Assembly: GCF_013343295.1 (NCBI RefSeq)
Contig: NZ_CP049074.1
Location: 1,469,501-1,533,500, forward strand
Source of the DNA: Metallosphaera tengchongensis
GTDB taxonomy: Archaea; Thermoproteota; Thermoprotei_A; Sulfolobales; Sulfolobaceae
DNA length: 64,000 nt
Direction: 5' to 3'
The position numbers were made by a program, and so were the translations under genes. Positions within the stretch are counted from its first letter, which is position 1. Every line of letters begins with the position of its first letter. Below the pieces are notes generated by a model, which was not told the origin of the DNA, did not search any database, and saw only the letters and a program-made list of their open reading frames with translations. This document shows positions 22,287 through 56,598 of this stretch, piece by piece.

Positions 22287-23451
<1,165 letters not shown>

Positions 23452-44587: not shown

Positions 44588-46225
44588 TTAAACTCTAGTT
44601 CTCATCCTATCGAAAATATGTTTTAGCTTCATCTCTTCCATTCTTATGGTCTTTAACAGGTTTGGACTGCTGAAACTTAACTCTGGAGCACCTAGTTGAA
44701 GGGATATGGTACTAATGGTTTCCCCTATTGAGAGGGAACCTAGGTTAGCAGTCCTCCCTTTCAGTAAGGTGAGCAGCACGTTCCCTAACCAAAGCATTGT
44801 AGCTGCGTCTGCAATTAGCGCTCCGAAGGCTGATATAACCTCAGGGGTGACATATACTGGAGTTCTGGGGAAGACCTCAGCCCTCCTGGTCAATCCTGCC
44901 AGCCCTAGAGCGTCAAATCCGTACACTACCATCGCAGTACCCACCATATATCCGGCCATATGGATCCATCCTAACTTAGTGGAGAACCACATTCTGCCAG
45001 TCAGCATCGGAATTAAGTAATATAGAGTAGCGAAACCGGCAGGAACTATGGACCAGAATATCATGGCGTGGAAGTGGCCAGGAACCCACATCGTGTTGTG
45101 TATAATGGAGTTGAAGGCTATGTCCGCGTTAGATATACCAGTGACACCTGCAGCTATGGATCCGGCAAAGGATATGGCTATCCAAGCTGAGATTAAGTTC
45201 ATCTTGACTGAAGCTCCCTTCACGGTCGCCCACAGATTGAAGAAGGTAAGCATAGAGGGGACAACTACAGCGTAGGTCAATACTTCCTGAAGAACCTTCA
45301 GTGAAACGGGGAAGTCGACCATGTAGAGGTGGTGAATGGGGACGTTATTGGAGAATATTAGGTACATTAAGGCAGCTATCCTCGCCATCTTGTCACTATA
45401 TAGGGGTTTATTGGCCAACAGAGGGATCAAGTAATACATGGACGCTATGGCAGGCATCCACACTATGTACACAATGGAGTGACCTAGTATCCAAAAGGCA
45501 ATCTGATTAGCTATCACGTTCATTCCAGTGACGCCAGCTATTGCCAGTAGATCCCAAGTGTTAGCTGCAGCTTCTCCGCTCCATCCCAATGCTATCATAA
45601 GGGCTGTTACTAGGGCGAACACCGCGAAGATCGGTAGCTTTTCCTTTGTAGTCTTTGAGGCGAGGTAGAAGTGATATATGAGCCAAATTACAAACATGTA
45701 AGTCCCTATGTCCAAGAGTTCCATACCGATGTACCACAGAGGGCTCAAAACGTACTGAGATACGTTTGGAAGACCCAGTGGAGCGAGGTAGTACCAAGAT
45801 CCTGCGGAGAAGTAGTTGTCATTGAAGGTAGGGTAGAGGACTATTGGTCCCTCCAGAAGCATAAAAGATATGTTAAAAATTACGAAGGCTAAGTTCATGA
45901 ACCATTTAGCTCTAGGCTGTAGGTTAAGCATCCTAAGGGAGAGGAACGCGAATATTGCTATCTCGAGCTGGACTGCGAAACCGAAAAGGTCCCTAGCGCC
46001 ATGCAGGGTAATCGATCCATAATACTCCTGGGAGGTGAGGATGAAGTTAGAGGAGCTTGCCCACACCACTTCCTGAATCCTAGCCATGAGAGCGTCTATG
46101 ATACCCAAGATCCCCCACACTAGGCTCATCACAATCATAGCCATTGTAATTCTTGAGAGCCAGTCCTTGTCAAGTTGAAACACACTTTTAACAAAATTTA
46201 CCAACCCGCTTAGTGGAGTTTCCAT
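44588..46225 (-). CDS. Haem-copper terminal oxidase subunit I (type B)
   Basis: The 545-residue protein has about 13 membrane helices. [12 protein letters not shown] resembles the CuB His and cross-linked Tyr helix (GHPxVY) of ba3 oxidases, HHLYMVDFP carries the paired CuB histidines, and [12 protein letters not shown] holds the haem a3 and haem a ligands. [10 protein letters not shown] supplies the other low-spin haem His. It resembles FoxA/DoxB-type subunits of iron- and sulfur-oxidising Sulfolobales. Its own TATA box (TATATATAGG) lies about 25 bases before the ATG. No subunit II gene is adjacent. Confidence 0.85.
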
Positions 46226-46299
46226 ATCTTACATTAACGGGGCTACCTATATATACGTTTATCTTATAAAAGCTAAAAATAGTTCCCAATTAAATGTAT

Positions 46300-46337
46300 T
46301 GAATTCTTTTTTTCAAAAAATAAATTTTTGACTTATA
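46300..46337 (-). terminator. T-rich terminator of the polyferredoxin gene
   Basis: On the minus strand the sequence after the stop at 46338 reads TTTATTTTTTG then more T and A runs. This kind of T-tract ends archaeal transcripts, separating the gene from the oxidase, which has its own TATA box. Confidence 0.5.
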
Positions 46338-48275
46338 TTAAGTACCATTGCTTCCTAATTTCTCCCTTATCCAAGATCTGAAGTCATAGATCCTGATATT
46401 TTCGTACGGGCACGCCTCCATACAGTCACCGACCCCAATACACCTCATGGATTTGAATTCTCCCTCCTTGATGAATTTTCCAGGGAGGTCAGTGTTACCT
46501 ACTGGGCAAGCTTCACTACAAGCTTTGGTCTCGCACTTTACGCAGAGATCAGGGTTCTTAACCCTCAACCTGAATAGTCCCAGCCCGCCAAAGAACTGGT
46601 TGAAGGTGCCCCAAGAGCACCATCCCTGAGTTACGCAGGCATAAGAACCCATGAAGGGGATGGAAATGAAAACAACGTACCAAAGGAAGTTAAAGTAGAA
46701 GGAGTAAAGAAACACTGTCGGGTCGTTTCCCAGGATGGTGACATTTATTACCCCATCCTGGTTTAAGAACGATAGGACGGCGAAGGCTAAGAGTGATCCC
46801 CATACAACTAGGGCAATAACCTTATACCAAGGTCTCAGCCTACTTGATAACGTTTTCCTTCCCAACCTTGAGGTCCTGTTATATGACTTCAAGGACTCAT
46901 AAAACGTACCCTGATACATGGTGGGGGCGGTGCAGGTTACTGAACAGATTTGTCTGGAGCCGAATAGGAACGATAGAACCGCGCTCACCACGTAAGTTCC
47001 AATTATACCTGGGATGAGATAGTTGGAGGCAACTGGTCCCAGAGTACCCAAGCCCATGCTCCACATATAGGGGATGAAAGCTATCTTGGAAGATAAGGGG
47101 GAAAAATTCGGAAGGTAAATGGTATAAATGGCGTAGGCTGATACCATTAGGGCTAACCTGATCTTGTTCTCCCTAAACTTCACCTCCCTTATCCTAAATA
47201 ACGCTAACATCCCCATTTCCGTTCCCATCATGACTAGAAACCAAGTCGACCCGGTGACTGAGCCGAAGATCGAGAGGAAATCGAACAGGGAACCTAGTCC
47301 GTAATAAGAGAGCGGGTTCACGAAGCCTAAACCAAGTGAGGACAAGAAACCCCTCACTCCTGTTGAGAAATTCCCTGAAGCGAAGTCCAAAACCCCTCCC
47401 ATTAGCCACTCCATGATAAAAGTTACTAGTATGAAAGAGAAGGTCCACTTGGAGTCCTTCATATAGTTTCCTTTAACGTGATTTGGTCCGTTAATTGCTC
47501 TGTATATGAACCACGTCATTCCTCCTAGCATTGAGGCGTCAAAGAGGTACCAGGAACCTGTCAAAAAGTAGGTAAATATTCCAGCCATCATGAACGAAAA
47601 AACTAACATCAGTTCAAGGGAGGTCATGGTCTCTTGGGTTCTCTTCAGTCTGTCTCTATATAGTGATTCATAGATGAGAATTGTGGCTATGATCATTAGG
47701 CTTGCGTTAAACCATATGGTGTCGTTCACATATTGGGTAACTTGTGGGAGGATAACGGGTGATATTCCCATGATTGGAAGTGCAATAATGAGGTAATTTC
47801 TCAAGGGTTGGGTCAAACTCTTGAAGGAGTAAAGGAGAGTAAATAACATCTCTGATATCATAACAGCGTAGTACCAGTAGTTCTCAACACCCAGTAGTGG
47901 GTTCCCAAGTTGTTTCGTGACCATGGTAAAGAACGTCTGACCCATAAACGCCTCGGAAAGAGCCATAAGTCCAGCGAAAACCAAGATGGTGTACCAACGC
48001 CTTACTTTTACCTTCTTGTTGATGTTAAAGAGAATGGGGATAAGACCGAAAATCATATAGGCTGAATTTGAAGCTAGGGCTACTGCCTCCGTGACCTGGT
48101 TGGGTGACGAAAAGAAAACTGATAGGGAAGCGAACATGACGACCATGCTACCTGTCAGGTACAGTACCAGCAGGAAGCCAACACCATCTATCCCTCTTTT
48201 AACTAGATAAATGAGATAAATTGAGAATGCTGCCATTAGACCAGCTATCAGTAGAAAAATGGGAAAATAATCCAT
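46338..48275 (-). CDS. Membrane polyferredoxin (FoxG/NapH-like)
   Basis: The 645-residue protein has at least twelve membrane helices and C-terminal Fe-S motifs: [14 protein letters not shown] and [13 protein letters not shown], suggesting two clusters though the spacing of each is slightly unusual. Two further Cys pairs in membrane-edge loops ([19 protein letters not shown]) resemble NapH/NosR. In the iron-oxidation (fox) clusters of Metallosphaera and relatives a membrane Fe-S protein lies by the oxidase; a similar role is likely but not certain. The electron donor is unknown. Confidence 0.75.
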
Positions 48276-48394
48276 TGCCCTTCTCTGTTAAACTAAGGGA
48301 TCTCGATGTATTTAAGGGTTGTTAAGGAGAACCAGTTCTACTGTTTATTTCGTTCAAAATTTATGTTATTGCTTGCAACTGTTGCTAGAGGATT

Positions 48395-48430
48395 CATATA
48401 TGCGAGGCTTTCCTTACCTTGTAAGACTTT
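48395..48430. repeat. Solo IS left-end fragment
   Basis: GCGAGGCTTTCCTTACCTTG-TAAG matches the left-end box GCGAGGCTTTCCTCAACTTT-GTAA of the tnpB family with a few changes. It lies in a 257-base gap before the enoyl-CoA hydratase gene. Confidence 0.45.
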
Positions 48431-48532
48431 CACCTAGATCCCTAACCGAAGTACAACAATTAGAGACCATTCATTCATCCCTTGTATTGATCAAAGTGAA
48501 AGAGATTTAACCCTTCCTCCTAATTACCCTAC

Positions 48533-49297
48533 ATGGTAGTGAATCTAGAGAGGAGAAAGAATTACCTTCTCCTTTCGTTCAATACGGAAGGTAAGTATAA
48601 CGTTTTTAACTCAAGGTTTATGATAGATATGATAGATGCCTTAGACAAGGTCGAGAAGGTTCGTGACGTTCACTATCTGGTAGTGAGAGGGGAGAACGGT
48701 AACTTCGGTTCTGGGGCAGACATAAGGGAGCTCCTAAAGGCCTCAACCGATAAGGAGTATGCTAAGGTCTTTTTTGGGCATATGAAGGACCTTTTCGTAA
48801 AGATGATGTCAATAAATAAGGTCACCATAGGGCTAGTGGAAAACGTTGCTTTTGGAGCCTCCATGGAGTTGCTTCTAATCCTTGACGTTGTGTTGGCCAA
48901 GTCTGGAACTAGGTTCGCTGCCCCTGGTGGGAAGTTGGGAGTTTTCCCGCCTGTTCTGGTTTCAATAGGTCCTTACATCTTAGGACATAGGGCATCGAGA
49001 AAGCTGGCAATGTTAGGAGAAGAACTTGACACTAAAAGGGCTTTGGGGGTAGGTCTGATAGATCAGGAAGTAGAGGATCTCGATAAGGGACTGGTCGAGA
49101 TACTGGAGAGGATGAAGCAGATGTCCCCCTCCTCTCTCGTCAGGATGAGGAAATTGATCCTATTTTCCCTAATCCCTTACTTAGACAAGGCCTTCGAAGA
49201 GCTGTCGACCCAAGTAATCACTGACGAGGCTAGGGAGGGAATAGGCTCTTATCTGTCCAAAACTTCTCCATCATGGACTTCAGTCAGTTTCTCTTAA
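48533..49297 (+). CDS. Enoyl-CoA hydratase/isomerase family protein
   Basis: The 254-residue crotonase-fold protein has the oxyanion-hole segments GSGADIRELLK and VAFGASMELLLILDVVLAKS. A Glu expected in the second helix of hydratases is retained in GASMELLL. Possible roles are fatty-acid breakdown or the 3-hydroxypropionate/4-hydroxybutyrate cycle. A TATA-like GATTTAAC at 48504 is about 27 bases before the ATG, so the mRNA is leaderless. It overlaps the convergent ABC permease gene by 18 bases. Confidence 0.8.
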   Translation: MVVNLERRKNYLLLSFNTEGKYNVFNSRFMIDMIDALDKVEKVRDVHYLVVRGENGNFGSGADIRELLKASTDKEYAKVFFGHMKDLFVKMMSINKVTIGLVENVAFGASMELLLILDVVLAKSGTRFAAPGGKLGVFPPVLVSIGPYILGHRASRKLAMLGEELDTKRALGVGLIDQEVEDLDKGLVEILERMKQMSPSSLVRMRKLILFSLIPYLDKAFEELSTQVITDEAREGIGSYLSKTSPSWTSVSFS

Positions 49298-50275
49298 CTT
49301 CATCAATTTCCCTCCGGCGTAAACGAACGCGACAGTAGCCACTCCTATGTAAACTACTTGGGCAAAGGAAGGCAGGGTGTTATACACCACTAAGTCCCTT
49401 ATCACGTCGTTTATTATGGATAAGGGCTGATATGCAACTAGGGGTCTGAGCACTGTCGGAAATGCCTCTATCTGGAAGAACGCGTTACTGAGGAACATAA
49501 GGGGGAATACAAGGATATTGGCAGCTGTCTGGGCTACGAAGAGCTTGTCCTTGGGGCTTAATCCGAAGATCACCGAGCCTAGACCAGCGAACATCAAAGT
49601 TGAGATAATAAGGAAGACTATGAAAGAAAGACTGATCAGGGGTAAAAACCCAAACGCTATTCCCAAGAGGAGAATAGGCACTATGGAGATCAACGTTATG
49701 ACTATCTCGTAAATTATCAGCCCCATTACCCACTCGTAACTCCTAAGTGGAGACGCAGCCAGCCTGTCAACTAGTCTATCTCTGTAGTAACCGGCAGCTA
49801 CTCCAGTAATACCAAAGAGCCCATTTGAGAGAGACACTACTCCGATCATTCCTGAGATGACGTATCCGTAGTAGGAGAATCCCTCTTGTGGGAGGTTTTG
49901 AAAAGTAACTGCCTTATTCCCAGAGAAGAACTCCTGTACTAGGGCTTCAAGTGAGGGAATCAGGTAAGAGTCATCCTGGGGATAGTAGAGGTATACCTTA
50001 TCCCCATTGACTTGCGCAAATATGTAATTATGGAGCAGGGCTTCCCTCATTCCCATTCCCGTCGTTCCTGTAAAGAGCGATGAGGAATCGAGGAAATGAG
50101 CCAAAGAAGAGTTCCCCTGAACGACTACGGTAACGTGAGGTTGAGCAGCTGAACCGAAGCCCAAGGCAAAGATTAAGGTAAGGAACAATGGGAAGAATAT
50201 TACAAAGAAAAGGGTTGTCCTACTGCTCAGGTTGTCTTTTATTATTGCTAGTGCAGTGATTAAGGCTTTCCTCAT
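49280..50275 (-). CDS. ABC-2 type transporter permease
   Basis: The 331-residue protein has one N-terminal membrane helix, an extracytoplasmic loop of about 100 residues and five C-terminal helices, with the ABC-2 motif GYYRDRLVDRLAASPLRSYEW. It is typical of DrrB/NodJ exporters for drugs, lipids or polysaccharides. The start overlaps the end of the ATPase gene by four bases, so the two form one exporter. Confidence 0.85.
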   Translation of the reverse strand: MRKALITALAIIKDNLSSRTTLFFVIFFPLFLTLIFALGFGSAAQPHVTVVVQGNSSLAHFLDSSSLFTGTTGMGMREALLHNYIFAQVNGDKVYLYYPQDDSYLIPSLEALVQEFFSGNKAVTFQNLPQEGFSYYGYVISGMIGVVSLSNGLFGITGVAAGYYRDRLVDRLAASPLRSYEWVMGLIIYEIVITLISIVPILLLGIAFGFLPLISLSFIVFLIISTLMFAGLGSVIFGLSPKDKLFVAQTAANILVFPLMFLSNAFFQIEAFPTVLRPLVAYQPLSIINDVIRDLVVYNTLPSFAQVVYIGVATVAFVYAGGKLMKLRETD

Positions 50276-51000
50276 GAAGTATCACCCAGAAGTTCCATTA
50301 GGGCTAAGTACGCTTCCTCTAAAGTCTGTTTCCTGAACTCTTCCATTAATTCTCTCGGGCTAGAAAGCCTTACTAATTTCCCGTCAAAAATTACCCCTAC
50401 TCTATCGGAGAGCCTCTGGGCCTCGTCCAGATAATGGGTTGTTAGGAGCACGGTCACACCCCTCCTCTTAACCTCGGTAATGAGGTCCCAGAGATCCCTC
50501 CTTGATCTCGGATCTAACCCCACGGTCGGTTCATCCATGAAAAGCAACTTGGGGTCTCCGGCTAAAGAGCACGCAATGGCTAACCTCCTTTTGTAGCCCC
50601 CTGAAAGGTTCCTATATCTAGTCTTCCTGTACTCAAGCAAGTCCACAGTTTTCATCAGCTCTTCAACCTGGGACTCATCCCCGTTGTAGAGCTTGACGAA
50701 GTACCTAAGGTTCTCCTCAGCTGTTAGATCCGAGAAGCCCTGAAACTCCTGGGGGACTACTCCTATTTTTTCCCTTATCTTATTACACTCTTGGGGCACG
50801 TTAAAACCAAGAACTTCAACCTTACCTTGGCTAGGCTTAATCATACAGGACAGTATCTTCACGGTAGTGGTCTTTCCCGCACCGTTCGGACCTAGAAGGG
50901 AGAACACCTCCCCATGATCCACGTGGAACGTTATCCCCTTTAAGGCCTCTTTCCTCTTATTGTAAACTTTCCACAAGTTTTCAACGTTAATTATTTTCAT
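50272..51000 (-). CDS. ABC transporter ATP-binding protein (DrrA-like)
   Basis: The 242-residue ATPase has Walker A GPNGAGKTTTVKI, signature LSGGYKRRL, Walker B LLFMDEPTVGLDP and the H-loop TTHYLDEAQ. It pairs with the permease downstream, with which it overlaps by four bases. The ATG at 51000 starts directly at the fold. The substrate is unknown. Confidence 0.92.
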   Translation of the reverse strand: MKIINVENLWKVYNKRKEALKGITFHVDHGEVFSLLGPNGAGKTTTVKILSCMIKPSQGKVEVLGFNVPQECNKIREKIGVVPQEFQGFSDLTAEENLRYFVKLYNGDESQVEELMKTVDLLEYRKTRYRNLSGGYKRRLAIACSLAGDPKLLFMDEPTVGLDPRSRRDLWDLITEVKRRGVTVLLTTHYLDEAQRLSDRVGVIFDGKLVRLSSPRELMEEFRKQTLEEAYLALMELLGDTS

Positions 51001-51999: not shown

Positions 52000-53125
52000 T
52001 GAATTGGGATACGGTTTCGATGAGGATTTCCCCTACCGTCCTCTGCTCAGCCATATCTCAAACTATGAGAAAGATCTACGTTTCGTTTTAGGGTGGTTAA
52101 GAAAGAACAGACCAAACAAGTTGTTAAAAGAGACACACAAAGGGATCTATGAGACACTAAGGAAAAAGTTTGATCTACCTCCAAGTTAGCTATAGACTGT
52201 TATAGGGACGCCATAGTAGAGTACAAGTCGTGGTTGAAGAACCCTAAACGCGGTAGGTACCCAGTAATAAAGAGGGCCTATGTCTGGTTGACGCAAGAAC
52301 CGTTATACTCCATTGACTTCAACAAGATAACAGTGAGGATAGCTAGGGTTGGCGAGTTACCAATAGAGGGTTATCCAAGGAACTTGCCAGAATACAAGGG
52401 CTGGGAGATGAGGGAGGCTAGGCTAGATTTAAGAGATGGAAAGGCGTTTCTGAAGGTCTCTTTCCTCAAGGACTGGGAGGAGCCAGAGGCTAAAGACGGT
52501 GTCGCCGTAGACATAAACATGGCTGATGTAGTTGTAGGCAAAGACTATAAGTAGTACGTCAGAATACCAACGCGTTTAGAGCGCGTTTAGAGGATGCACA
52601 CCACTACAAGTCACTAGCTGAGTCACTACAGAAGAAGTACGAGGGGAGGTGGAAGGAAAACGAGAGGGTCCTTAGCAGGATTAGGGCGTACCATAAAAAA
52701 CCTAGGAACGTCTTAGAGGACTCAGCTAGGAAAATCGGAAAGTGGATAGTAGAGATAGCTAAGTCGTTCAACGTCTTAGCCATACTCTTAGAGGACTTAA
52801 ATGACCTCATCAAGAGCGTGAAGAAGCGATCACCGCGGTTTAGGGATAAACTCTATCTTATGCAGTACCGTAGGCTTCAGACTGGGTTGAGTAACATACT
52901 AAGAAACACGGACTTAAGGTAGTATACGTTGACCCACAATACTCCTCTACTCGCTGTCCTAAGTGTGGGAAAGAAATGGAGGAAATGTGATATAGGTATT
53001 TTCGTTGTCCTTGTTATGGTTATGGGGATGACTGTGACGTTATCGCGGTCATGAACTTGTATGGGAGGGAGTTTCTGACCCTCTCGACTGCCCCCAGATG
53101 AGAGATGTAACTCCGAACCGATAAG
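52000..53125 (+). pseudogene. tnpB: tnpB pseudogene, copy 3
   Basis: Plus-strand segments match TnpB from its residue 25 onward: [57 protein letters not shown], then SLQKKYEGRWKENERVL and a zinc-finger relic (CPKCGKEMEE). Stops at 52187 and 52552 and several frameshifts disable it, a GCGCGTTTAGA duplication has occurred at 52571-52590, and the first 20 codons are replaced. The RuvC Asp remains. Confidence 0.8.
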
Positions 53126-53162
53126 GGGAACCCCGCCGTGGCGGCGAGGAAGTCAGAACGTC
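53120..53162 (+). repeat. tnpB right end, copy 3
   Basis: GGGGAACCCCGCCGTGGCGG followed by CGAGGAAGTCAG corresponds to the intact right-end hairpin at 23436-23472. Host sequence (a peptidase relic) starts directly after it. Confidence 0.65.
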
Positions 53163-53445
53163 GTCTACTGTAATCCAGTGGGGAGTCAGGGTTATGGGGA
53201 GGAGTTCGCAAAGGACGTAGTCGGGGACTGAGGAGGGAAGGACTTCCAGCAGATAATGGCCTTCGTAAAGCTAGTCAACGAGGAGTTCAACCTCAAAGGA
53301 AGTTCGGCTTTACGGGGGCTCCTACGGGGGCTACATGACCAACTGGATAGTCACCAAGACGGACTTCTTTTCGTAAGCAATTAGCGAGAGGAGCACATCA
53401 AACTTGGTGAGCATATGCGGCACTAGCGACATAGCTGAGACAGAC
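53163..53445 (+). pseudogene. S9-family peptidase fragment (acylaminoacyl peptidase-like)
   Basis: Frames with one shift and two stops read NPVGSQGYGEEFAKDVVGD, GGKDFQQIMAFVKLVNEEFN and then GSYGGYMTNWIVTKTDFF, the catalytic-serine block of prolyl oligopeptidase/acylaminoacyl-peptidases, ending ISERSTSNLVSICGTSDIAE. The beta-propeller and the Asp-His part are missing. It was cut by the tnpB element on its left. Confidence 0.7.
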
Positions 53446-53720
53446 AAAGAGTATACGCGTTATGCCTCACATCCTAGAAGTTACGTTATCAAACCAGATG
53501 GCTCTATAGCAAAAATACTGTTGATATGTATAGTGTGTTAAGAATAATTGGCAGATTGAAAGAAGACGGAGGATTAGAAATAGATCTGGAAAAGCATAAG
53601 TGGTGGATAAGCGGTATATGTAGTAAAGATATTAACGCCTTAAGATGCCCATTTTACAGTAATAAGAGATGTCTGATTCAGTTAAAGGCATTAAGAAATT
53701 GTTGGCGAAGAAAGAGGTAA
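53446..53720 (+). pseudogene. Radical-SAM/SPASM protein C-terminal remnant
   Basis: HPRSYVIKPDGSIAK (from 53475) matches the SPASM 'NSYVIDPDGxxYK' strand. After a frameshift the frame from 53526 reads IIGRLKEDGGLEIDLEKHKW, then CSKDINALRCPFYSNKRC, the spacing of the last SPASM cysteines. The radical-SAM barrel is missing. Its end overlaps the start of the membrane protein gene, showing that the two were once co-translated. The assignment is by motif only. Confidence 0.5.
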
Positions 53721-54934
53721 TGCTGCTCACGGTTTTGAGGCCAATAATATTGAGCGAGGTCGTAACTGGGGTCATCTCGTACTATCTTTTTCAGACCGGG
53801 ATCATACACAGAGACCTATTTTTACAGTCCCTTGTTCTATCGTACCTTCAGCCCATAATCTACATAGCTCAGAGCGTTAGGTTTTTAGGGGATTACATAA
53901 GGAGCCCAAGGGCGAGCTGGGTCTTACTTTCCTCCATATCTGCGACTTCCTTGATATTGATTGGCTTCCTAGTTAAGGAGCTCTCACTGGCTTCGCTTGT
54001 TGCGGCCTTAGTCCTTCTGTTCACCACAGTGGCTCCGGGTTCAATCATGGGCACTCTGGCGTTTGGAGTGTTTAAGAGGGTGTTAAAGGAGGAGCAGGAA
54101 TATATGGCGCTCTCTCAAATCCAGAGGGCTATGTACATCTCTTCTGCATTGGTGGAGTCACTACTCCTTTTCCTCATAGGGCTATACGGCGTAGCCGTAA
54201 TAACGTTCTCATTTATATTCCTCGGAGTTTATTACTTAATAGTGAACATATTTCTAGCGTTGAAAATAGACATAGAGAGAACCAACAACGGGGGAAAGGG
54301 TTTTTCCATAAGTAAGGAAGCCCTCTCAAAGTACTGGGAGATACTGAGGAAGAACAAACGTTATTTTTACGGGGTATTCCTCTTACGTATTCCCTTTGTA
54401 TTAGTATCAGCTTCTTCGCTATACTTTTACTCGTTGTTCGGTAGTTCGGCTGACTACTATCTATTTGCTTCAATTTGGAACATAGTGGGAATCGTAGGGA
54501 TAGTTGCAGCAATTTTGACAGCGTCTGAACTCATGAAAAGTCTAAAGACGCTGTCAAACGGATCCCTCGTGCTCCTAATGTCGTCTATCTGTTTCTTCGT
54601 ATATCTAATAGCAGTATATACGCTAAAGTTTACTCCCTACGTCTATTTCGCCCTTTTATTACCAATAGTCTACATAGCGAATGCATTAATAATAGCGTTA
54701 AATATGATATCTGATGTAGTCGTCCCCAAAGAATATTTCGGCCACATAACTAGCATAGAGAGCGTGATGTCCCTCCTCCTCTCAGACGCTTCCCTAATAG
54801 GGATCGGATATCTTGCCCAAAACGTTAGCGTCACCCTCTCCTTAGTCATAGTGACGTTAGGGGTGGTTATCCCCAGCGCTTTTGTCTATTTTAAGGCAAA
54901 GGACATAAATTTGATTAACGATAGTTCTTCATAA
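53669..54934 (+). CDS. Twelve-helix membrane protein, MFS-like exporter
   Basis: The 421-residue protein has about twelve membrane helices without clear motifs. The arrangement of two six-helix halves with a charged central loop (LALKIDIERTNNGGKGFSIS) suggests a major-facilitator carrier. Position after a SPASM relic and a peptidase relic suggests export of a modified peptide, as inference. The ATG at 53669 lies inside the end of the SPASM frame. It is intact although its neighbours are decayed. Confidence 0.65.
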   Translation: MSDSVKGIKKLLAKKEVMLLTVLRPIILSEVVTGVISYYLFQTGIIHRDLFLQSLVLSYLQPIIYIAQSVRFLGDYIRSPRASWVLLSSISATSLILIGFLVKELSLASLVAALVLLFTTVAPGSIMGTLAFGVFKRVLKEEQEYMALSQIQRAMYISSALVESLLLFLIGLYGVAVITFSFIFLGVYYLIVNIFLALKIDIERTNNGGKGFSISKEALSKYWEILRKNKRYFYGVFLLRIPFVLVSASSLYFYSLFGSSADYYLFASIWNIVGIVGIVAAILTASELMKSLKTLSNGSLVLLMSSICFFVYLIAVYTLKFTPYVYFALLLPIVYIANALIIALNMISDVVVPKEYFGHITSIESVMSLLLSDASLIGIGYLAQNVSVTLSLVIVTLGVVIPSAFVYFKAKDINLINDSSS

Positions 54935-55027
54935 TTTCTGTTTCTCTTGCCGCCTTCACAAAGGGGAGGCAAGCCGTTCGACGACCTTTCCTATGACGCT
55001 GTCTTCTTCTCTACGAGGAGCGGGAGT
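54935..55027. other. IS-related intergenic sequence
   Basis: After the membrane protein a GCCGCCTTCAC...GGGGAGGCAAGCC stretch could form a weak hairpin, and GAGGAGCGGGAG at 55015 repeats the sequence near 51170. No gene is seen. Confidence 0.3.
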
Positions 55028-55252
55028 TTAGTTTGAGGCTAGCTTACTGGGATGCCGTTCACAGAGTTGCCCAGTAACGGTTGAAACGCGTAGTTGGGGG
55101 CGCGATCGTAAAAGCCCTAGAAGAGGAGAGAGGAAATTAAAGGTGTTACTCCCCTTTACGGGAGTTACGTCGCCTAAGGTAATTGTGGCTAACATGTTTA
55201 TGCCTAAGTCTATTGAAGCTGCCTTGTTACCTATAGGCGTCTCTATCTGCAC
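55028..55252 (-). pseudogene. tnpB: TnpB fragment of a second lineage
   Basis: The first half of this frame reads GNKAASIDLGINMLATITLG, the RuvC-I block of typical OrfB/TnpB proteins (IDLGINxLA). It differs from the VDINMAEL of the other copies, so it derives from a different IS200/IS605 lineage. Only about 40 residues are recognisable. Confidence 0.65.
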
Positions 55253-55329
55253 CTTGCTCTGGCATTTTTCTCTGTTTCTCGTGAGGGTTGTAGGTCTTAA
55301 AAACCTCCGCTAATTGTCATAAAAGAATG

Positions 55330-55366
55330 CCAACCCTCGCCCTTTAGGACGGAGAGGAGGTCAAAT
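55330..55366 (+). repeat. Solo tnpB right-end hairpin
   Basis: AACCCTCGCCCTTTAGGACG followed by GAGAGGAGGTC matches the right-end hairpin order (AACCCTCGCC...GGCGGGGAGGAAGTC). No matching tnpB precedes it in this orientation. Confidence 0.5.
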
Positions 55367-55542
55367 ACATTTTCACGTGAAATCTTAAAACCATTGAAAC
55401 CAATGACTCCCTCTCCAGATGGCCGTGATAAAAGGAAACAAAACCCTTCAGAACTTAGAGGAGGAAGGGAAAAGGACGTATATGTGAGAACGAGAAGTTT
55501 TTAAAAAAGCGATTTTTAAACGAGTATCGTCTCTTTGCTCAA
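55367..55542. promoter_or_regulatory. Upstream region of the radical-SAM gene
   Basis: TTTTTAAAC at 55515-55523 is about 25 bases before the ATG at 55543, indicating a leaderless mRNA. An earlier TTTTTAAAAAAG tract adjoins it. No small precursor-peptide gene was recognised in this stretch. Confidence 0.5.
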
Positions 55543-56598
55543 ATGCTGTGGCTGGTATTTACGTCAGGGAAGTGCAACTTGGTCTGCGACTACTGTGGGG
55601 GATCCTTTGAGAAGACTGTAGTCCCGTGGAGCGTTAAGTATGATATCAAAAAGATCAAAGGACTGATCGAGAGGGACCCAAAACCGACAGTTATCTTCTA
55701 CGGAGGAGAGCCCCTGTCAAATCCCAAGTTCATTGAGACTTTTATGGATGAGATCAAAGCCACTCGATACGGTATCCAGACTAACGGTACCTTAGTGAAA
55801 TTGTTACCAGAAAATTACTGGAGGAGAATTAACGTGGCTCTCCTTTCCATTGATGGTAGGAGGGAGGTGACTGATAAACATAGGGGAAAGGGCATTTACG
55901 ATAGGGTAATAAAGAATGCAGGCTACTTAAAATCGCTTGGCGTAGAGACCATAGCAAGGATGACCGTTACGATGGACAGTGATATCTTAATGGAAGTCTC
56001 CCATCTTCTTGAAACGGGTGTTTTCGACAAGATTCACTGGCAACTGAACATAGTGTGGACCGATAGGTGGGATGTGGAAACTTGGTCTAAAAACGTTTAT
56101 CTCCCAGGTATTAGGTCCCTAGTTGATCTGTTTGCCTCCAACCTGGAGAGAGGTAAGGTGCTCAAGATAATCCCCATCCTGGGCGTAATTAGTGCTCACT
56201 ACTTCGGAGGGTACAGAGGTTCTCCGTGCGGAGCTGGGTACAACTCAGTTTCAGTCACAACAGATGGGAGAATCTTGTCCTGCCCGATCGCTGTCAGGGA
56301 GAAGTGGGCTGAGCTCGGGGACGTGAACTCTGGATTTTCTCTTATGGACGAGCCATTACCTAAAGAGTGTATGAACTGTGAATTCAAAAGGTATTGCGGA
56401 GGAAGATGCCTCTATGCCTCCAAGGAGAAGTATTGGGGAGAGGAAGGTTTTAAGATAACGGATGAGATAAATAAGGAATACCTTAGAACCGTTCTGTCCC
56501 TGATACCTAAGATTGACCAACTACTCAAGAAAGGGGTAATTTCCCTATCCGATCTCAGGTACGATCCCACGCAGGATTCCACGGAAGTAATACCCTGA
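55543..56598 (+). CDS. Radical-SAM/SPASM peptide-modifying enzyme (AF1577-like)
   Basis: The 351-residue enzyme starts with the radical-SAM motif CNLVCDYC (C11, C15, C18) and FYGGEPLSN, then a SPASM domain with [20 protein letters not shown] and [14 protein letters not shown] holding the ligands for auxiliary clusters. The design fits the archaeal family annotated as putative peptide-modifying enzymes. All Cys are intact, so it should bind its clusters. The substrate peptide is unknown. It lies just before leuS, with 54 bases between, but each gene has its own TATA-like box. Confidence 0.8.

Follow-up and report, generated by a model that had tools for sequence, protein, structure and literature searches.

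The systems most similar to the locus described here are the RiPP maturases of the TIGR04463, Clo7bot, CefB and CteB/SCIFF types. Within the archaea, the available parts of PMC12144867 report radical-SAM RiPP classes found by genome mining across superphyla that include TACK, and those of PMC10105419 describe archaeal lanthipeptides. Known antagonistic agents of the Sulfolobales are few, and the only archaeocins from this order named in the available parts of PMC10105419 are the sulfolobicins, which are membrane-associated proteins. A Sulfolobales cassette of the kind described below does not appear in the available parts of either paper, and a literature search on TIGR04463, Clo7bot, ChlB and Sulfolobales RiPPs returned nothing specific.

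The window analyzed here is a 64,000-nucleotide stretch of the Metallosphaera tengchongensis genome (G000:C1:1469501-1533500), for which a preliminary description had proposed the remains of a radical-SAM peptide-modification locus consisting of four pieces: a broken S9 peptidase, a broken SPASM C-terminus, an intact 12-helix exporter-like protein and an intact radical-SAM/SPASM enzyme. A reading of all frames of 52.9-55.6 kb places these pieces at the same coordinates. The SPASM relic and the exporter are supported as remains of such a locus, whereas the S9 peptidase and the intact enzyme do not belong to it. With a probability of about 70%, the relic and the membrane protein are what is left of a RiPP-type precursor-maturase-exporter cassette in which the exporter has possibly been kept for immunity.

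The SPASM relic and its intact relatives

The relic of the maturase C-terminal SPASM part (53435-53720, + strand) is recognized by its identity to the L010 locus and by its match to a SPASM profile. Its frame is broken near 53510, and the two resulting pieces match the profile with E values of 8e-12 and 3e-4. Two of the three SPASM Cys residues of the family are missing: CYAS has become RYAS, and KCTV is lost at the frame break. This broken tail is all that remains of the window maturase and does not amount to a functional enzyme. As previously described, the membrane protein begins inside the relic, at 53669, and continues as an open frame of 421 aa to 54934 on the + strand; with homologues located beside maturases, it is the putative exporter of the cassette. 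The same pair is observed in a second genome (G024, locus L010), where the exporter homologue comes after a SPASM fragment that shares 55% identity with the relic. The relic and the intact membrane protein are a genuine pair.

Intact relatives, which the preliminary description had suggested looking for in related genomes, were located by searches with the SPASM tail and are precursor-maturase-exporter cassettes. Intact or nearly intact examples are found at L063, L066, L097/L086 (UBA167), L064, L099 and L100, with one stop in the L064 enzyme and a frame change that splits the L099 exporter in two frames in a draft genome. At the intact loci, an ORF of 38-54 aa precedes a short radical-SAM/SPASM enzyme, and the gene for an MFS-like exporter overlaps or abuts that of the enzyme. 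The carriers include Sulfolobus sp. UBA167, Vulcanisaeta and Micrarchaeota MAGs, and scattered bacteria. The family is rare: the SPASM tail is present in 9 of the 229 genomes of the class, and the one further relic pair, in the genome studied here, is the window itself. The cassette is patchily distributed and has probably moved horizontally; its patchy and decaying occurrence is typical of antagonistic peptides. No relatives were found in viral contigs, and bacterial plasmids carry relatives of the enzyme with small upstream ORFs and other partner genes.

Two further loci (L065, 4877-6885, and L098, 4445-6459) carry an intact solo enzyme of the same SPASM type, conserved in the two genomes and coupled to a protein of 366-369 aa that occupies the place of the exporter and has no Pfam match. 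Neither a recognizable precursor nor an exporter is seen at these two loci.

The exporter and its retention after enzyme loss

Homologues of the exporter occur in 11 of the 229 genomes of the class, and none were matched in plasmids. The frame of this protein is intact, and the 12 helices proposed earlier are plausible at most, as hydropathy shows 9-11 peaks across the family and the structure model is poor. The protein itself matches no Pfam or NCBIfam model, and the PDB matches are weak, coming from a single MFS exchanger with a best E of 0.18. Against PF07690 (MFS_1), with a gathering cut-off of 33.4 bits, the L068 exporter scores 30.4 and that of L063 21.7. A structure model of the window exporter was too poor (pLDDT 38.5) to serve as the basis of a fold search. 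The weak MFS_1 similarity of the relatives would suit a general MFS transporter of drugs or metabolites that lies behind radical-SAM genes and has survived by chance and recency, as would the decay of exporter copies at L050, L070, L101 and L135. This explanation is unlikely, however, considering that at every well-preserved locus examined the exporter gene comes immediately after an enzyme of this type or what is left of one, in many cases overlapping it, even though the exporters diverge down to ~20% identity.

The cassette decays in a particular pattern. Seven loci (the window, L010, L068, L096, L132, L133 and L134) combine a gutted enzyme with a full-length exporter frame. The reduction can be extreme: L133 retains seven codons from the start of the precursor, fused to the final codons of the enzyme and followed by an intact 413-aa exporter, and at L132, 15 codons of the enzyme tail are all that is left. 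The reverse pattern, decay of the exporter beside an intact enzyme, is not clearly seen among the loci examined. Enzymes without this exporter occur at L065, L098 and L087, and both genes are broken at L070, L101, L067, L094, L102, L135 and others.

Roughly one silent change to three replacements is expected without constraint. The L132 branch of the exporter carries 26 synonymous and 12 non-synonymous changes, and the L133 branch 13 and 15. By these substitution counts, the exporters on the two branches, where the enzyme has been lost, still show constraint. Between G028 and G030, which have an enzyme relic in common, the exporters are 98.3% identical and the relics 93.8% (p 2e-4). The exporter of G030 is itself broken, and the dN/dS of 0.6-0.9 for this exporter pair has too few changes behind it. 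In Vulcanisaeta, the exporter dN/dS (0.23-0.32) does not indicate stronger selection than on the remaining SPASM tail (0.15) and so does not set the two apart.

The existence of seven loci with a gutted enzyme and a whole exporter, with the reverse not clearly seen, suggests an immunity role for the retained exporter, the simplest reading of the pattern. Immunity is put forward here as a hypothesis because the dates of the losses are not fixed and the G030 exporter is broken. A wider proposal, offered tentatively, is that of a modified-peptide archaeocin system in thermoacidophilic archaea with an exporter that doubles as immunity, in which lineages would repeatedly drop the precursor and maturase and stay resistant non-producers, the window being one case. 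Resistant non-producers are known for bacteriocins, and repeated maturase loss with exporter survival would provide an archaeal counterpart to them, should immunity be confirmed as its basis. What is left in the window is not enough for making a peptide; export or resistance may still be possible.

Candidate precursors and enzyme class

The preliminary description identified no precursor gene, which holds for the window and not for the intact relatives, where candidate short ORFs precede the enzyme. Such ORFs start the cassette 10-53 nt 5' of the enzyme gene at L063, L064, L066, L097, L101, L099 and L087. They are 38-54 aa long with Cys in the tail, and several end in Cys; examples of the tails are ...KCGNFIC, ...CTDGRPISGFVC, ...VCEAGPGGGSDLYSAC, ...CGPSDC and ...ACLNIRNCR. 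The candidates at four of these loci are MILDQFGRIKETKGINENTIEYLILANQLTGPILKCGNFIC (L063), MLLNNLGIIEEIENINENSINYINLVKQLARADRFKCGNFFC (L101), MVVKIDNIKTLMNEINTIIEDIQPIYCTDGRPISGFVC (L064) and MAKRIKSMENVLQIEPIYEEIYRHPEIRAANEIVCEAGPGGGSDLYSAC (L066). With a fixed ORF-picking rule, the upstream ORFs of 21 enzyme loci were compared with those of 189 control genes by Fisher tests, whose p values are indicative only, as common descent of part of the loci means that independence is overstated. The upstream ORF ends in Cys at 6/21 enzyme loci versus 4/189 controls (p 8e-5) and has at least two Cys in its last 20 residues at 11/21 versus 12/189 (p 4e-7). An hDxxGR-like leader motif, framed after examples had been seen and with variants allowed, is present at 10/21 versus 5/189 (p 2e-8).

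Homologues of two of the precursors, searched for in 31 genomes, lie at cassettes in all six cases, with none in G000. For the L066-L070 precursor pair, dN is 0.17 and dS 0.95, the changes being mostly silent. Judged from their sequences, several of the precursor ORFs are coding, and a short precursor beside a modifying enzyme is present, at the level of sequence, in the intact relatives. The precursor families cannot be aligned with one another, and none matches an NCBIfam model. Some archaeal candidates share the hDxxGR motif with bacterial relatives, whose small upstream ORFs on plasmids also carry C-terminal Cys. A leader profile from those relatives recovered, among the archaeal candidates, only that of L100 (3,666 small ORFs), a precursor not readable in one frame; the shared leader motif therefore stands as a short pattern. 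No convincing ORF with a leader motif or Cys was found near the window relic.

Similar arrangements are seen on bacterial plasmids. In L115, L116, L118, L119 and L120, ORFs before radical-SAM genes share the leader hhDxxG[RKE]hhhxdPE and Cys-containing tails; where annotated, these short ORFs are hypothetical proteins only. On a Deinococcus plasmid (L121), a related radical-SAM gene has two short ORFs and a lantibiotic dehydratase in its vicinity, which hints at a locus of mixed modification.

The enzymes of L063, L065 and L066 exceed the PF04055 (Radical SAM) gathering cut-off of 29.5 with 59.9-70.5 bits, and the CNFRCxYC motif, an instance of CxxxCxxC, is conserved in the enzyme relatives. 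Their nearest NCBIfam models (TIGR04463, Clo7bot, CefB and geopeptide) are RiPP maturases, all matched well below the cut-offs; full-length relatives reach 109-148 bits against the curated TIGR04463 cut-off of 525. The Micrarchaeota homologue, modeled at pLDDT 82.8, has AnSME, CteB and ChlB as its nearest structures (Z about 23), and Foldseek ranks CteB first. Together, the RiPP-maturase profile neighbors and the AnSME/CteB/ChlB-like predicted fold make it well supported that the enzyme modifies a peptide or protein. The best guess for the bond, by analogy, is a thioether to Cys; a ranthipeptide- or sactipeptide-type cross-link would agree with the enzyme fold and the Cys-containing tails, from which it is inferred.

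Short precursors and radical-SAM enzymes also yield peptide-derived cofactors, and the enzyme might accordingly modify a cellular protein or make a small cofactor, as for PQQ or mycofactocin, with the peptide a consumed scaffold and not a secreted antagonist. The nearly constant exporter partner in the Sulfolobales, the patchy occurrence and repeated loss, and the lack of a recognized dehydrogenase partner near the loci make this quite improbable. In the preferred reading, that of an exported modified peptide, an intact cassette would encode a precursor of the above length with Cys near or at the C-terminus. The short radical-SAM/SPASM enzyme (CxxxCxxC and three auxiliary Cys, too short for an N-terminal leader-binding domain) would read the leader and modify the Cys-containing tail, which by analogy with CteB-type enzymes would be cross-linked through a thioether to Cys. 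The MFS-like exporter, encoded by the overlapping or abutting gene, would then move the product out and protect its maker. With concrete sequences for the precursors of so compact a cassette, radical-SAM peptides can be tested directly in thermoacidophilic archaea.

Neighboring genes and comparison with known systems

The pair lies in an IS-rich region, 51.1-55.5 kb, that a search of the own genome and the gene order of relatives place at a rearrangement breakpoint. In four other genomes of the genus, a homologue of the gene at 44588-46225 is directly 5' of the TIGR04084 gene discussed below; in the window, it is 9 kb away on the opposite strand, and its usual place is taken up by 4.4 kb of other sequence. 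This displacement and the intervening sequence indicate that 51.1-55.5 kb is an insertion at the breakpoint. Short repeats lie on its flanks, that on the right (55141-55363, no strand assigned) having further copies elsewhere in the genome. The gene order of 44588-51000 is unlike that of related genomes: two genes (44588-46225 and 46338-48275) have changed both orientation and position, and the IS-rich insertion occupies the breakpoint. Upstream of the window (G000:C1:1456872-1461657), three more radical-SAM genes are close together; judging from matches in related genomes, this cluster seems to be conserved.

At 52010-53157 (+ strand) is a broken TnpB element with in-frame stop codons, which from known sequence motifs we take to be of the IS200/605 type. 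It is homologous to a TnpB-like ORF at 22287-23435 and has ~35 related stretches in the own genome, many of which end at the equivalent of 53156-53157. Exactly where this element ends, the S9 (acylaminoacyl-peptidase-like) fragment begins (53157-53434, + strand), and the broken peptidase with its serine block, GGSYGGY, and in-frame stops is seen as originally reported. The fragment is 76-77% identical to sequences in G003 and G002, S9 relatives are present in 31/31 Sulfolobaceae genomes, and an intact own copy (G000:C1:1353389) shares 63% identity with it. No S9 gene lies beside the intact cassettes at L063, L064, L066, L097, L099 or L100. The fragment lies beside the cassette by chance and does not belong to it. 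The precursor and the greater part of the enzyme would have been lost through a deletion or rearrangement involving IS elements, which would also have joined the S9 fragment to the enzyme tail; the exporter was left intact and perhaps kept for immunity.

The intact radical-SAM/SPASM enzyme (55543-56598, + strand) is present as described and belongs to the TIGR04084 (AF0577) family, with 597 bits over the full profile versus a curated cut-off of 225. The family is found in 31/31 Sulfolobaceae genomes at 66-79% identity, and leuS adjoins the gene in 17 of 30 loci, within the flanks examined. In five other genomes of the genus with the TIGR04084-leuS pair, no exporter-like or SPASM-relic-like sequence was found. 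Outside the window, wherever both occur, exporter homologues and TIGR04084 are in different parts of the genome and never neighbors, the arrangement named beforehand as speaking against this enzyme as the maturase of the locus. It is a housekeeping core gene and a neighbor unrelated to the cassette. That all four parts form one locus, with an S9 leader peptidase, a TIGR04084 maturase and the membrane protein as exporter, as their position within 3.4 kb on one strand and the SPASM domain of TIGR04084 had indicated, is extremely improbable given that TIGR04084 and S9 are universal in the family, the one often beside leuS without exporter or precursor and far from the exporter homologues, the other elsewhere in the genome, and that neither is in the intact cassettes.

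Among known families, TIGR04084/AF0577 thus resembles the cassette enzyme as a radical-SAM/SPASM enzyme adjoining the relic in the window and differs in being a distinct gene of the universal core that has neither a precursor nor an exporter. The PapB-family ranthipeptide maturases (NF047865) are matched by the intact relatives at 82-97 bits, below the cut-off of 340. With the archaeal RiPP clusters and lanthipeptides in the available parts of PMC12144867 and PMC10105419, the cassette has in common that these are archaeal modified-peptide loci. TIGR04463 ('rSAM vs C-rich'), the Clo7bot maturase, CefB and CteB/SCIFF provide the best profile matches and a similar fold, and share the CxxxCxxC core, the SPASM-type auxiliary Cys and a Cys-containing precursor gene directly upstream. 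In contrast to these systems, the archaeal enzyme is ~330 aa long, has no N-terminal leader-binding extension and scores far below the cut-offs (148 versus 525 bits), and the archaeal cassette pairs it with an MFS-like exporter and with precursors of which many end in Cys.
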